Source of the DNA: Acidiferrobacteraceae bacterium
GTDB taxonomy: Bacteria > Pseudomonadota > Gammaproteobacteria > Arenicellales > UBA868
Reading direction: 5' to 3'
NCBI GenBank assembly: GCA_018698075.1
Contig: JABINT010000185.1
Location: 1-35,721 of the forward strand
Length of the DNA stretch: 35,721 bases
Below the pieces are notes generated by a model that was not told the DNA's origin, made no database searches, and worked only from the letters and a program-made list of their open reading frames with translations. Each line of letters starts with the position of its first letter. The first letter of the stretch is position 1. Below, one piece after another: positions 1-6,756 of the stretch. Made by a program: the position numbers and the translations under genes.

Positions 1-411
1 ACCCGTTGTGAGCGGCAGCAGCGCTCGCACACGAGCCTGCAACAGATCGATGGAATAGCCCGAGATGTCCAGTGTTTGTCCGGTCAGAACTCTGGCGGCA
101 TCCACGCTCGCAGAGGGAATGCGCAGTACGAAGCGCGTTCTGGCAGACAGTTCAATAGTGCCGTCGTCTGCAGGCTGTTGCCAGCCATTGCTCGACTGGG
201 CCCCGTGAATCAAGTGAATGCCGGCCTGTTCTTGCTGTTCCAGCCAGGGCAGAACCTGGGTGATAGCCTCGGACAAAGGCCAGGCGTGATCGGCCGGGAT
301 CTGCCGGCCCCGGATAGCAAACACCAGGTCAACGACAGGATCGATATCGGGCGTGGTGGCTTGGGGCGGGGTCTCGCGCCAATAGTTGGAGGTCGCCATG
401 ATCGTTGTCAT
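1..411 (-). CDS. Cas6/Cmx6-like protein (3' end cut by window edge)
   Basis: The visible 137 residues read inward from position 411 and run off the left edge in frame. The pattern VVDLVFAIRGRQIPADHAW, then LPWL, GIH.IHGA, LSARTRFVLRIP, and GQTLDISGYSI resembles the N-terminal part of the type I-MYXAN Cas6 (Cmx6) family of CRISPR RNA endonucleases, as I recall that family. The start at 411 gives an ATGA overlap with the upstream gene; a second in-frame ATG lies at 399. The gene is the last visible member of a four-gene minus-strand operon with a TauD-like dioxygenase, and I see no CRISPR repeats or other cas genes here. Members of this family may have non-CRISPR roles. The catalytic residues cannot be judged because the C-terminus is missing. 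Confidence 0.6.
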   Translation of the reverse strand, partial: MTTIMATSNYWRETPPQATTPDIDPVVDLVFAIRGRQIPADHAWPLSEAITQVLPWLEQQEQAGIHLIHGAQSSNGWQQPADDGTIELSARTRFVLRIPSASVDAARVLTGQTLDISGYSIDLLQARVRALLPLTTG

Positions 412-1112
412 TGTATGGGCAGCGAGGCTTGGATGAGATCGCGATCTATCCACCAGTCGTCCTGCACCAGTACGTCCACCACATTGCGTAGGCGCGGCAG
501 GAACTGTGCCGGATCATCAAGTTCCAGACGCTGAATCCATTGCTCGAAATCTTCCTGTTTTTCTATGCCACTGTGTCGGCGTGCGACGGTCCCCAGCAGT
601 TGGTTGGCAAAAAAGGACAGGGATTCGCGCATGTTACCCTGCGCTCGAAGATCGACGACGTAGGCGGCAGTGGCTGCTGCCACGGCTGCGCCATCTGAAT
701 CATCCGGCGTCTCATCGACGATATCTTGAAGCAGAGCAACCGACAACTCCGGATCGACAGGAAAGGTGACTGCGAGCCAGACAGCGTGTCCCAGTGCGAC
801 CAGCGCGTCGGGTTCACCGGACTGGAACATCACCCGGGCGGCTTCAGCGGCTTGCGCCCAGAGCCCCCCAGCGCAAAACTGTTCGAAACAACGTTGCGCG
901 CTGCGCCAGGCTTGTGCGCCTTCGTCCAGGTTGACCAGCAGTCGGCCCTCCTGCAGTGCCAGTTCACACCATTGTGGCGAGTCGATTGCAACCTCGCTTT
1001 CTTTTAGGCGGTCGCGCACAGCGTTAAGTTGTGCCTGTAATGCATCGGCGGATGCACCAGCGTCTTCACCTGACTCCGCGCCGAGGTCGAAATCCGTCCC
1101 TAAGTGTTTCAT
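408..1112 (-). CDS. Uncharacterised helical protein, 234 aa
   Basis: I do not recognise this protein. It has an acidic, Ala/Asp-rich N-terminus (residues 1-25), a predicted coiled or helical stretch around 26-45, and alanine-rich helices between about 50 and 175 that look like a TPR-like or other alpha-solenoid fold. The C-terminal segment (190-230) is rich in Trp and Asp. There is no signal peptide, membrane segment or metal motif. It overlaps the genes on both sides by 4 bp (ATGA junctions), so it is very probably translationally coupled to the small upstream gene and the Cas6-like downstream gene. A scaffold or partner role for one of them is possible but is only inference from context. 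Confidence 0.75.
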   Translation of the reverse strand: MKHLGTDFDLGAESGEDAGASADALQAQLNAVRDRLKESEVAIDSPQWCELALQEGRLLVNLDEGAQAWRSAQRCFEQFCAGGLWAQAAEAARVMFQSGEPDALVALGHAVWLAVTFPVDPELSVALLQDIVDETPDDSDGAAVAAATAAYVVDLRAQGNMRESLSFFANQLLGTVARRHSGIEKQEDFEQWIQRLELDDPAQFLPRLRNVVDVLVQDDWWIDRDLIQASLPIQ

Positions 1113-1321
1113 GGCCGTGTCTTGCCGGTGTCGGCATCGAGTGCGGCAGTGAATGCGCTCTCGACCTGGTCTTCCCAGTTATCCGGCGTGTCGGGGTAGG
1201 GCGGTTTGACATCCATACGCAGGAAGCGCTCGCCACTACCTGCTTTTTCACCTACCAGTGCAATCAGATGCGCAAAAGAGATAGGTTGGTTCTGCAGCAT
1301 GAGTTCACTGATCCAGAGCAT
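1109..1321 (-). CDS. Small uncharacterised protein, 70 aa
   Basis: This is a short acidic protein without cysteines, signal peptide or membrane segment, and I recognise no family. The N-terminal half (MLWISELMLQNQ, then SFAHLIALVGEKAG) looks helical. The C-terminal half carries a PPYPDTPDNWED stretch followed by another helix. It starts 7 bp after the stop of the TauD-like gene and ends in a 4-bp ATGA overlap with the 234-residue protein. That spacing is the main reason to accept it as real. It may be a small subunit or adaptor of the neighbouring proteins, which is inference only. Confidence 0.65.
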   Translation of the reverse strand: MLWISELMLQNQPISFAHLIALVGEKAGSGERFLRMDVKPPYPDTPDNWEDQVESAFTAALDADTGKTRP

Positions 1322-1328
1322 GGGGCAT

Positions 1329-2258
1329 TTACCTTAAAACCATTGTAGTTAGTGCCTGGGTGTAGCGCCCGCGGTAGATCAGGCGGGTACACCCGGGCTG
1401 TGACGAGTCGATAAATCCATCACGTCGATGCAGTACGTTGTTGCATACCAGCCCTTCGCCCGGCAACAGCCGGCGAAATACAGCCAGATCAGCACACGAA
1501 TCCAGAATTTCTTGCAGTGCCGCGATGGCTTCACCAACCACGGGATCGCTTTTCCAGATAATGTTGCGCTTGCGTGCGCTATAGCGCATTTGCAGTACAT
1601 CACCTTCATGAGAAAAAACCGGCCCGCTCACGCTGGCACGCACGCCAGACCCGGCTGCTTCATTTTCAGGTATGGTCATTGTGTCTGACTGGCTGAGTGC
1701 CGCGGTGTATCGAGGATCACAACGGTGTAGCAGACCAAATACGATTTCATGATCAATGACCTGAAGTGTGCCGCCGCTCATGGCCGGGCGGACACAATGC
1801 AGCGCCATGGCCCGGATGGTGCGTTCTGGCGTATGGTAATAGCCATCAGTATGCCAGCCGATCGGACGGTTGCTGTAGGGAATATAGCGCTGATGCGTGG
1901 AGCTATGATTGACTTCGAGTTCACTCAGGCCGTCATCGGCGGCGCACAGGTTACTGTCTGGTTTTCCCAGGCCCAGTTGCGATGTCAGTGCCTGTATGGC
2001 CGCACGGTCAATATTTTCTGGTTGGCGACATCGATAGACGGCCATGTTGGTATCGCGAACGCGCACGGCCAGGGCGTGACGTTCGTTAGCGCTGAGTTGC
2101 AGTGGGTCGGCGATCTCGACGCTGAGATCTTCAATTGCTCTACGATAACGCGAAAGGCGTTCGTCCCACCAGCGTGAAAAATCGCCGCCGCTGAAGTGCG
2201 CCGATGTGCCGGATCGGGTCTTGGATGCCACAGTGACTTGCGGTTCAGAAAGGTTCAC
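1329..2258 (-). CDS. TauD/TfdA-like Fe(II)/2-oxoglutarate-type dioxygenase
   Basis: The 309-residue protein carries the facial triad expected of TauD/TfdA-type non-haem iron oxygenases: a His-X-Asp motif at H136/D138 in GWHTDGYYH, a distal His at H277 (NNVLHRRDGF), and an Arg near 292-295 (TRLIYRGRY) suited to binding the 2-oxoglutarate carboxylate. Length is in the family range. The substrate is unknown; taurine is only one possibility, because close relatives act on many acids, and no taurine transport genes are nearby. It is the first gene of a minus-strand operon and is divergent from dsrA across a 466-bp spacer, so the two could share regulation. Its link to the Cas6-like protein downstream is unexplained. 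Confidence 0.8.
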   Translation of the reverse strand: MNLSEPQVTVASKTRSGTSAHFSGGDFSRWWDERLSRYRRAIEDLSVEIADPLQLSANERHALAVRVRDTNMAVYRCRQPENIDRAAIQALTSQLGLGKPDSNLCAADDGLSELEVNHSSTHQRYIPYSNRPIGWHTDGYYHTPERTIRAMALHCVRPAMSGGTLQVIDHEIVFGLLHRCDPRYTAALSQSDTMTIPENEAAGSGVRASVSGPVFSHEGDVLQMRYSARKRNIIWKSDPVVGEAIAALQEILDSCADLAVFRRLLPGEGLVCNNVLHRRDGFIDSSQPGCTRLIYRGRYTQALTTMVLR

Positions 2259-2481
2259 GGGTGCTCGAAACGCTGTTGGCGCAGTAGGAACGGAAACAAA
2301 TTCTAGCCCGTGGCGTTGTTAGGCAAACTCTCCCAAAAGGTTGATTCCATCAGGCTCGGTCCAGTGGCCTGGTGCCAGAACGCGCTCTTACTCGCTCTTT
2401 CCGGCAGGTCTTTGTGAGTTAAATATATGAATGCATGATGTTTTTAAGGAAATACGTAGCCATTGTCGAAAGGAAATCTTG

Positions 2482-2573
2482 TGCACTGCAAGATAAATCC
2501 TATCCCTATAGGGATAAGGTGGATTTTTGTGAGGCATACCCTCCCGGGGAATGGTGCGACCTCGGGCAGTGCA
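2482..2573. repeat. Outer inverted repeat enclosing the palindrome
   Basis: TGCACTGC (2482-2489) and GCAGTGCA (2566-2573) are exact 8-bp reverse complements flanking the inner palindrome. Similarity extends outward (TTG before the left arm, ACAA after the right) with a 2-base offset. Nested symmetry over about 90 bp suggests a folded leader RNA or paired protein-binding sites. Confidence 0.5.
2495..2526. repeat. Perfect 16-bp palindrome with extended arms upstream of dsrA
   Basis: TATCCCTATAGGGATA at 2501-2516 is a perfect palindrome. It is flanked by AAATCC (2495-2500) and GGATTT (2521-2526), which extend the symmetry after a 4-base insertion on the right side. It could be a dimeric regulator's operator or an RNA hairpin in the leader. 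I recognise no known operator consensus. Confidence 0.7.
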
Positions 2574-2724
2574 TACAATGGACTCACATCAGCACCCTCG
2601 TGGTACGGACCTTGGTGTCGTAAGACCTTCTGCACGCGGGCAGCACAGCCCAAGCCAACGAATCGTGTATCGAGACGGCGCTTATCACCTTATGGTGCCA
2701 CAAACGCAATGGAGTAGCCCTGTT

Positions 2725-3993
2725 ATGGCTGATAACAAGCAACATGAAACCCCGATGCTGGATGAACTGGAGAGCGGCCCCTGGCCGAGTTTTGTCTCTG
2801 GGATTAAGCGCCTGCGTGACGAGCATCCGACTGATCGTATTAACGGGGTGGCGAATGATCTGCTCGGCCAGCTCGAGCACTCCTACGAAACCCGCAAGGG
2901 TTACTGGAAAGGAGGCACGGTAAGCGTTTACGGTTACGGTGGTGGAATCATCCCGCGGTTCTCAGAAGTCGGTCAGCAATTCCCCGAGTCCAGAGAGTTT
3001 CACACCGTGCGGGTTCAACCGCCCGCCGGTAACCACTACAGCACCGATATGCTTCGCCAACTGGCCAACAGTTGGGAGAAATGGGGTTCGGGCCTGGTGA
3101 CATTCCATGGCCAGACCGGGAACATCATGTTTATTGGCGCGACCACGGATAACACCCAGCACTTCTTTGACGATATTAACGACTATGGTTTTGACTTGGG
3201 CGGTGCCGGCCCGTGTGTGCGTACCGCCATGTCCTGTGTCGGCGGCGCGCGCTGTGAACAGTCGTGTGCCAACGAACACAAGATTCATCGAACTTTGGTT
3301 AATAACTTTACTGATGACGTGCATCGCCCAGCTCTACCGTACAAATTCAAATTCAAGGTGTCGGGTTGTCCCAACGACTGCATGAACTCAATCGAGCGCG
3401 CCGACATGGCGGTAATTGGAACCTGGCGCGATGACATGAAAGTCGACCAGGAAGCCTGGAAATCCTATGTTGCGAAAAAAGGTCGTCAGCACACCATCGA
3501 CAACATCATTACCCGGTGCCCGACCCGTTGCATGAGTCTTAAAGATGATGACTCAGTTGAGATCGACAACCGGAATTGTGTGCGCTGTATGCACTGTCTG
3601 AACGTCGTTCCCAAAGCACTATCGCCCGGAGACGACAAGGGCGTAACGGTCCTGATGGGCGGCAAACGGACACTGAAGATCGGCGATCTGATGGGCACGG
3701 TGATCGTGCCGTTCATGAAGCTGGAAACCGAAGAGGACTACGAGAAAATTACCGAGATCGCGGAAAGCACTATCGATTTCTGGGCAGAAAATGGCCTTGA
3801 GCACGAACGCTGTGGTGAGATGATCGAGCGCATCGGTCTGGTCAATTTCCTCGAGGGGGTTGGTATCGACGTCGATCCGCACATGATTGCCAGTCCGCGT
3901 CAATCTTCTTATGTGCGCATGGATGGCTGGGATGAAGAGGCGGTTAAATGGTTTGAGCGCCAGGCCGAAGATCGCCAGTCAGCAGCCGGTTAA
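2725..3993 (+). CDS. dsrA: Reverse-type dissimilatory sulfite reductase alpha subunit
   Basis: DsrA, together with DsrB, forms the cytoplasmic siroheme enzyme that in sulfur oxidisers releases sulfite from DsrC-bound sulfur. The 422-residue product shows the siroheme/[4Fe-4S] ligands in C171-X5-C177 and C215-X3-C219 (SGCPNDC). An inserted ferredoxin domain has C265, C285, C288 and C291 (NCVRCMHC). The start at 2725 (MADNKQHETPMLDELESGPW) matches the usual DsrA N-terminus and has GGAG ten bases upstream. The frame is open for 58 more codons upstream, but that part runs across the leader and is not DsrA-like. It is the first gene of the dsr operon. The gene set (dsrEFH, dsrL) argues for the oxidative direction. 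Confidence 0.97.
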   Translation: MADNKQHETPMLDELESGPWPSFVSGIKRLRDEHPTDRINGVANDLLGQLEHSYETRKGYWKGGTVSVYGYGGGIIPRFSEVGQQFPESREFHTVRVQPPAGNHYSTDMLRQLANSWEKWGSGLVTFHGQTGNIMFIGATTDNTQHFFDDINDYGFDLGGAGPCVRTAMSCVGGARCEQSCANEHKIHRTLVNNFTDDVHRPALPYKFKFKVSGCPNDCMNSIERADMAVIGTWRDDMKVDQEAWKSYVAKKGRQHTIDNIITRCPTRCMSLKDDDSVEIDNRNCVRCMHCLNVVPKALSPGDDKGVTVLMGGKRTLKIGDLMGTVIVPFMKLETEEDYEKITEIAESTIDFWAENGLEHERCGEMIERIGLVNFLEGVGIDVDPHMIASPRQSSYVRMDGWDEEAVKWFERQAEDRQSAAG

Positions 3994-6295: not shown

Positions 6296-6628
6296 ATGGC
6301 ATTTGAACTGAACGGTAGGACCTACGAAACTGACGAGGAAGGTTACCTCGCTGATCTGAGTGAGTGGAATCGCGAGGTGGCCGGTTATATGGCCACAGAA
6401 GATGATTGCGACCTCAGTGAGAATCACTGGGAAGTGATCAACTTTCTGCGCGAGTATTACGAGGAGTACCAGATTGCGCCCGCGGTGCGTGTGCTGACCA
6501 AGGCGATTGGCAAGAAGTTAGGCAAGGACAAGGGCAACAGCAAGTACCTGTATGAACTGTTTCCTTACGGCCCAGCCAAGCAGGCCTGTAAGTACGCCGG
6601 CCTGCCCAAGCCCACCGGCTGCGTCTGA
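6296..6628 (+). CDS. dsrC: Sulfur carrier DsrC
   Basis: DsrC is the small cytoplasmic carrier that accepts sulfur from DsrEFH and presents it to DsrAB. The oxidised product is then processed by DsrMKJOP. The 110-residue protein ends with the flexible arm containing both functional cysteines, Cys98 (KQACKYAG) and Cys109 (PTGCV). This marks a true DsrC rather than a TusE, which keeps only the last cysteine. It has the best ribosome-binding site of the cluster (AACAGGAGACC). It is followed by a GC-rich hairpin, which may let dsrC transcripts accumulate above the rest of the operon. DsrC has been proposed to bind DNA upstream of dsr in Allochromatium. Confidence 0.97.
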   Translation: MAFELNGRTYETDEEGYLADLSEWNREVAGYMATEDDCDLSENHWEVINFLREYYEEYQIAPAVRVLTKAIGKKLGKDKGNSKYLYELFPYGPAKQACKYAGLPKPTGCV

Positions 6629-6650
6629 GCTCGTATCACCCCCGGGTCGC

Positions 6651-6685
6651 ACCTGTATAGCCGGGGCCCGGCGGCCCCGCCAGGT
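6651..6685 (+). promoter_or_regulatory. Stable hairpin between dsrC and dsrM
   Basis: In the 128-bp gap after dsrC, CGGGGCC (6662-6668) pairs with GGCCCCG (6673-6679) across a CGGC loop. ACCTG (6651-6655) pairs with CAGGT (6681-6685) outside an internal loop. No clean U-run follows, so full termination is unlikely. A partial terminator, RNase barrier or processing site that favours dsrABEFHC mRNA is more plausible. Confidence 0.65.
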
Positions 6686-6756
6686 ACACGCCCTGGATTT
6701 TCCGACTCGGCGCACAAGTCATCAGTGTCGAGTCATTTGCTGGGAGGCCTATTCCC

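Follow-up and report, generated by a model that had tools for sequence, protein, structure and literature searches.

The window, the whole 35,721-nt stretch of DNA analyzed here, corresponds to contig C201 in a MAG of 2.67 Mb; its first base is a contig end. Next to that end, four genes occupy the minus strand as one tight operon: a TauD/TfdA-type Fe(II)/2-oxoglutarate oxygenase (positions 1329–2258; PF02668, E = 3e-10), a 70-aa ORF termed P2 (1109–1321), a 234-aa ORF termed P3 (408–1112), and the N-terminal 137 codons of a Cas6/Cmx6-like gene (1–411), which starts with an ATG at 411 and runs off the window at base 1. A 7-bp gap separates the TauD gene from P2, and 4-bp overlaps join P2 to P3 and P3 to cas6. 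On the other side of the operon, dsrA (2725–3993, plus strand; TIGR02064, E = 4e-190) is the first gene of a divergent rDsr cluster that contains dsrC (6296–6628, plus strand; TIGR03342, E = 8e-49). The sequence-only reading had described the four minus-strand genes with their overlaps and gap, the Cas6/Cmx6 and TauD-type identities, and two unrecognized proteins between them, all of which is borne out. It had also placed the operon beside the dsr cluster, which is correct, and facing it, which is not, as the two stand back to back.

The operon is, moreover, longer than the four genes originally counted. The same MAG contains a contig, C11, whose terminal ~47 bp align to the start of the window with three mismatches. 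C11 carries the remainder of cas6 (G000:C11:31601-31903, matching profile positions 91–190), followed on the same strand by a DsrC-like gene and a small gene (65–85 aa) and, further on, by a sox region. In locus L061, a DsrC-family gene without C-terminal cysteines (L061:19178-19516) directly follows Cas6 on the same strand and is succeeded, again on that strand, by a small unknown ORF of 85 codons (L061:18905-19162); a gene of the DUF6866/Sfum_1244 family (L061:17817-18869) then lies on the opposite strand, between the Cas6 operon and sox. Beyond it come a conserved 198-aa protein and two genes that we take to be soxB- and soxA-like from reading their sequences, with no profile search behind the sox call. 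The DUF6866/Sfum_1244 protein recurs either in this position or further downstream, and secreted-looking proteins with NP-x-x-Y repeats are encoded near sox (L061:15205-15705 and L061:3131-3730; LNPVTYVEYVNPMSY...). Close relatives are recorded under Arenicellales and further gammaproteobacterial groups, many with names that mark them as sulfur oxidizers.

The Cas6 fragment in the window matches Pfam PF09559 over profile positions 1–100 of 191 (E = 5e-27; 95.5 bits against a cut-off of 26.7). Against TIGR02807 it reaches 74.8 bits (E = 8e-21), below the curated cut-off of 98.85; it spans only half of the profile, and full-length relatives clear that cut-off with 118, 115.8, and 157.5 bits. An AF2 model of the close relative L016, not of the window protein itself (pLDDT 85, pTM 0.80), has as its best Foldseek match the Cas6 of a type I-B CAST (8fcu_B; E = 2.4e-17, TM 0.75/0.83), followed by Cas6 of P. 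furiosus. Assignment to a wrong, non-Cas6 family is ruled out by profile and fold, and on the strength of these profile matches and the predicted structure the window gene is a genuine Cas6/Cmx6 homologue.

Residue conservation was counted in 130 non-redundant Cas6 sequences, some of them from outside the immediate dsr locus, with seven cyanobacterial Cas6/Cmx6 sequences as controls; six of the controls directly adjoin cas3 or a CRISPR helicase, and the exception is L231 from Gloeobacter. The putatively catalytic histidine of the D-H motif is kept in 127 of the 130 and in 7/7 controls, and the glycine-rich loop is nearly invariant (G203 in 129/130, G211 in 130/130). In a few lineages the histidine is replaced by Phe (L078, L079, and L091), Tyr (L080), or Asn (L083), so some members may not cleave. 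That the histidine is catalytic is inferred from the family, and binding of hairpin RNA with cleavage at the stem base is inferred from the predicted fold and the conserved residues.

In terms of known systems, the protein shares its profile match, Cas6 fold, D-H motif (Asn in 8fcj), and C-terminal G-x-G...GCG-F-P loop with type I-MYXAN Cas6/Cmx6 (TIGR02807, PF09559; for example, cyanobacterial plasmid loci) and type I-B CAST Cas6 (8fcj/8fcu). Unlike these, it is dsr-linked, has no array, cas3, cas8, cas7, or cas1 adjacent, falls on a separate branch, and carries an extra SGNGWxRP insertion, an invariant Glu143, and a K..CG motif. Both W70 of the insertion and Glu143 are present in 130/130 sequences and missing from all seven controls, which have a gap at W70. 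A quick maximum-likelihood tree places the gammaproteobacterial dsr-linked Cas6 sequences on one side of a branch with an SH-aLRT of 96; the other side holds the CRISPR rows and three diverged rows from the same class (L244–L246), and some rows are long. Among close relatives, the median dN/dS is 0.20 for cas6 and 0.03 for dsrA, and cas6 is under purifying selection.

The distribution of Cas6 was compared with that of dsrA in a class-wide sample of 274 genomes (Gammaproteobacteria as GTDB uses the class; dsrA threshold E < 1e-30). Both genes are present in 87 genomes, Cas6 only in 4, dsrA only in 7, and neither in 176 (phi 0.91, Fisher 2e-57; the phyletic statistics are uncorrected for phylogeny). 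Most of the 11 exceptions coincide with a contig break at the expected place of the partner gene. Three of the Cas6-only genomes (L205, L207, and L208) have their TauD–Cas6 module cut off by the end of the contig; the fourth, L206, is represented by a 3.5-kb contig for which the map gave no call. Among the dsrA-only genomes, the contigs of L232–L234, L236, and L238 end at or just before dsrA, that of L235 stops after TauD and P2, and G270, an 86%-complete MAG, has a TauD-like gene near its dsrA piece, with Cas6 not found. A phylum-wide scan added three dsrA-positive genomes of the same class (L244–L246), all with Cas6 divergent from dsrA, and detected Cas6 in 0/48 dsrA-positive genomes of other classes. 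Four Cas6-free dsr loci read from other classes (L247, L249, L250, and L251), presumably alphaproteobacterial, have TauD and P2 divergent from dsrA, which points to the TauD–P2 pair as the more widely shared part; several other dsr loci outside the class look reductive-type. Cas6 is a near-constant companion of the dsr genes in sulfur-oxidizing gammaproteobacteria.

Gene order tells the same story. Enough upstream sequence is available at 92 non-redundant loci; 76 of them have dsrA no more than eight genes away from Cas6, and the neighbors across all 92 include TauD (67), P2 (59), and P3 (43); downstream of Cas6, RspA is found in 63 and F18 in 59 of 95 loci. The sequence-only reading had suggested tabulating whether the order recurs in dsr-containing genomes, which it does, and looking for a catalytic histidine, for which the alignment shows a conserved candidate. 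The sulfur-related module that it had raised as a mere possibility is now strongly supported by the co-occurrence with dsrA together with this conserved order.

The partner proteins were characterized computationally. All 68 TauD-like relatives compared keep the HxD...H triad (H136, D138, and H277) and the 2OG-binding R292. P2, which adjoins Cas6 or TauD in many lineages, shows the motif MLWLSE..SF..L..V...A..GE.FFRMDVKPPFPDTPENWEDRLEAAF in an alignment of 32 members and matched no Pfam or PDB family. P3 is conserved beside Cas6 and likewise hit no known family in profile searches; its AF2 model (pLDDT 89) is all-helical, with 11 helices predicted to form a TPR-like solenoid, and Foldseek returned no PDB match below E 0.09, the best being TPR/helical repeats. 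An identity of P3 with Cas11/Cse2 was considered and rejected, as profile matches were only weak (4/33 members, best E 0.02; PADLOC E 0.0095) and the 50 best fold matches were TPR/helical repeats without a Cas11. The DsrC paralogue that follows Cas6 scores 93.5 bits against TIGR03342 (E = 1e-26) and ends in GLPESRRKGGY, with an invariant RKGGY and no C-terminal cysteine; we assign it to the RspA type. It resembles RspA-type DsrC homologues of the TIGR03342 family in its DsrC fit, absence of C-terminal cysteines, and RKGGY tail, and differs in being the usual downstream neighbor of a Cas6 gene. With respect to the rDsr cluster (dsrABEFHCMKL...), the TauD–Cas6 operon stands divergent from dsrA and tracks it across genomes, and to our knowledge none of the Dsr proteins described so far is Cas6, P2, P3, or the TauD oxygenase.

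Candidate RNA targets were sought in the dsr region. Rfam yielded no family for either the window or L061. The dsrC–dsrM intergenic hairpin region (6629–6756, plus strand) was considered as a Cas6 substrate; compared with shuffled sequences, it has the more stable predicted folding (median z −1.9 across 45 lineages), other well-sampled dsr gaps giving −0.8 to +0.5. Strong hairpins of the same kind occur in the Cas6-free dsr operons L248 and L249, for which reason we reject the element as a specific Cas6 substrate and consider a role in mRNA stability or termination more likely. The hairpin is GC-rich and present in many lineages, its sequence having diverged, and is perhaps a partial terminator or a stabilizer of the dsrC message.

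The dsrA–TauD intergenic region contains a palindrome, TATCCCTATAGGGATA (2501–2516, no strand; consensus TATCYC-N4-GRGATA). The pattern, picked after inspecting the data, is found in 40 of 71 non-redundant dsrA–TauD intergenic regions, with 0.02 expected from shuffles, and in no more than two copies per genome in the 31 genomes searched. It is missing at the same-class dsr loci L244–L246, which carry Cas6, and was not found in the Cas6-free loci examined (L247–L251). About 60 bp downstream of the palindrome stands a conserved −10-like box, itself preceded by a CACCCCAAGGGTAGG-type box; in the window, palindrome-centered alignment and a pattern scan place the candidate dsrA promoter at 2541–2579 (plus strand), with box CTCCCGGGGAATGG and a −10-like TACAAT at 2574–2579. 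In close relatives, a comparable box and −10 are oriented toward TauD, and the corresponding candidate promoter of the TauD–Cas6 operon, inferred from sequence and conserved in those relatives, lies at 2300–2343 (minus strand; box CAACCTTTTGGGAGAG, −10-like TAGAAT). At the variable arm position of the palindrome, both kinds of half-change are about equally frequent, which fits a symmetric DNA operator better than a one-strand RNA stem. Its location upstream of the −10-like box and the lack of a one-strand pairing preference disfavor the palindrome as a Cas6 RNA hairpin. It is a probable DNA operator of the dsr genes, which we read as a hint of co-regulation rather than as a Cas6 substrate.

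The most familiar role for such a gene would be that of an ordinary CRISPR Cas6 serving arrays elsewhere in the genome, as the equivalog-level TIGR02807 match and the presence of Cas1 in 42 of the 91 Cas6-positive genomes might suggest. The other 49 lack Cas1, however, and over the 274 genomes Cas6 and Cas1 are scarcely associated (62 with Cas1 only, 121 with neither; phi 0.12, p = 0.06), so that the distribution tracks dsrA and not cas1. Among 61 relatives, Cas6 is found in 43, Cas1 in 7, both in 4, and a Cas7/DevR effector in none, and profile searches of the MAG itself (89% complete) gave no Cas1, Cas7/DevR, or Cas6_C family match. A scan of 257 sequences, which included the window and not the whole of its own genome, detected arrays only at the cyanobacterial controls L228 and L229, the one exception being an unrelated 3-copy repeat that lies well away from Cas6 in L216. 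The type I-MYXAN partners cas3, cas8a1/cmx1, cas7, and cas5 are not adjacent, the conserved neighbors being dsr, TauD, P2, P3, RspA, and sox. The sequence-only reading had noted no CRISPR in view and named an array or cas operon left of the window as its refutation; neither an array nor a cas gene was found beside Cas6 in the window or on the C11 side. Gene neighborhoods, Cas1/Cas7 searches, and array scan thus lead us to reject an ordinary CRISPR-Cas system, which we consider very improbable. Of the non-CRISPR RNA processing suggested earlier, the first element stands; RNA processing rests on inference from the fold and the conserved residues, with no substrate identified. Hardly any more credible is that Cas6 is an inherited neighbor of dsr with no functional tie. 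Tight physical linkage in most genomes would be expected of such hitch-hiking, but Cas6 is retained even where it does not adjoin dsr, which makes it unlikely: in ten genomes, mostly Beggiatoa relatives and often with P2, Cas6 was not seen beside dsr, and dsrA lies elsewhere in nine of them. Cas6 is also retained under purifying selection and in genomes of only 1.0–1.1 Mb (G099, G202, and G314; 96–99% completeness), and within one genus, g23, Cas6 and dsrA are jointly present in G061 and jointly missing in G328.

Two further rivals accept the tie to sulfur metabolism. The Cas6 fold may have been reused without cleavage, as a sequence-specific regulator of dsr that binds RNA or, less probably, DNA, possibly with RspA. 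The loss of the histidine in some lineages, the adjoining cysteine-less DsrC paralogue, and a conserved palindrome upstream of dsrA that a module protein could bind are consistent with this notion, whereas retention of histidine and glycine loop in 97–100% of the 130 sequences, the absence of the palindrome from the Cas6-bearing L244–L246, and its balanced half-changes, which suit a DNA operator and not an RNA stem, argue against it; we regard it as unlikely, although not to be dismissed. Alternatively, the module could serve thiolation or processing of tRNA or another stable RNA rather than dsr mRNA, given that a DsrC/TusE-family gene follows Cas6 in those 63 of 95 loci and that DsrEFH/DsrC correspond to TusBCD/TusE of the tRNA-thiolation relay (PMC3397948). 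The RspA-type protein, however, has no C-terminal cysteine to carry sulfur, and we consider this version improbable.

What the data establish is homology, a Cas6-type fold, a kept putative active site, purifying selection, dsr linkage, and independence from CRISPR. Our preferred reading, held as a whole with moderate confidence, is that a Cas6-family RNA endonuclease, independent of CRISPR, has been domesticated for the exclusive service of rDsr sulfur oxidation and probably acts on dsr-related RNA. That Cas6 is CRISPR-independent and dsr-dedicated we hold with high confidence, and that it acts on RNA we think probable, no substrate having been found; catalytic activity, inferred without biochemistry, is somewhat favored, and a dsr transcript as the target is only a tentative suggestion. 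A near-constant companion of dsr without CRISPR makes it seem that an immune RNA enzyme was recruited for a core energy pathway. A Cas6/Cmx6-family protein would have parted from CRISPR and settled as a fixed accessory in the rDsr pathway of Gammaproteobacteria, its gene divergent from dsrA and accompanied by those for a 2-oxoglutarate oxygenase, P2, often P3, an RspA-type paralogue, and a small protein, among which RspA, P2, and P3 may act as adaptor or sensor partners. It is possible, though we would not press it, that the captured enzyme provides obligate RNA-level control of rDsr throughout Gammaproteobacteria, a Cas6–RspA–P2/P3–oxygenase module binding and cutting a dedicated dsr-related RNA on a sulfur or oxygen signal.

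Cas6 can cut non-CRISPR RNA, as Sulfolobus Cas6-3 does with ncRNA60 in vitro (PMC4041471), although there the enzyme belongs to a working CRISPR system, and on sulfide the dsrEFH and dsrC transcripts exceed dsrA (PMC3397948). No paper linking Cas6, orphan or otherwise, with dsr was found in the open-access literature, subscription papers being outside the search, and nobody seems to have tested a role for dsr-linked Cas6 in sulfur oxidation. Much marine and sediment sulfur oxidation is driven by rDsr gammaproteobacteria. With a near-universal, apparently unstudied Cas6 beside dsrA, current Dsr models may miss an RNA-level component, and the proposed function, if true, would clearly exemplify how a CRISPR RNase can be drawn into housekeeping metabolism. 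Automatic annotation meanwhile reports a "type I-MYXAN Cas6" in genomes without such a CRISPR system. Among the cyanobacterial controls, L231, a Gloeobacter morelensis plasmid with no cas gene within the stretch read, has a cupin and a PAPS-reductase-family gene in the same gene row as its Cas6/Cmx6, which is perhaps another non-CRISPR Cas6.
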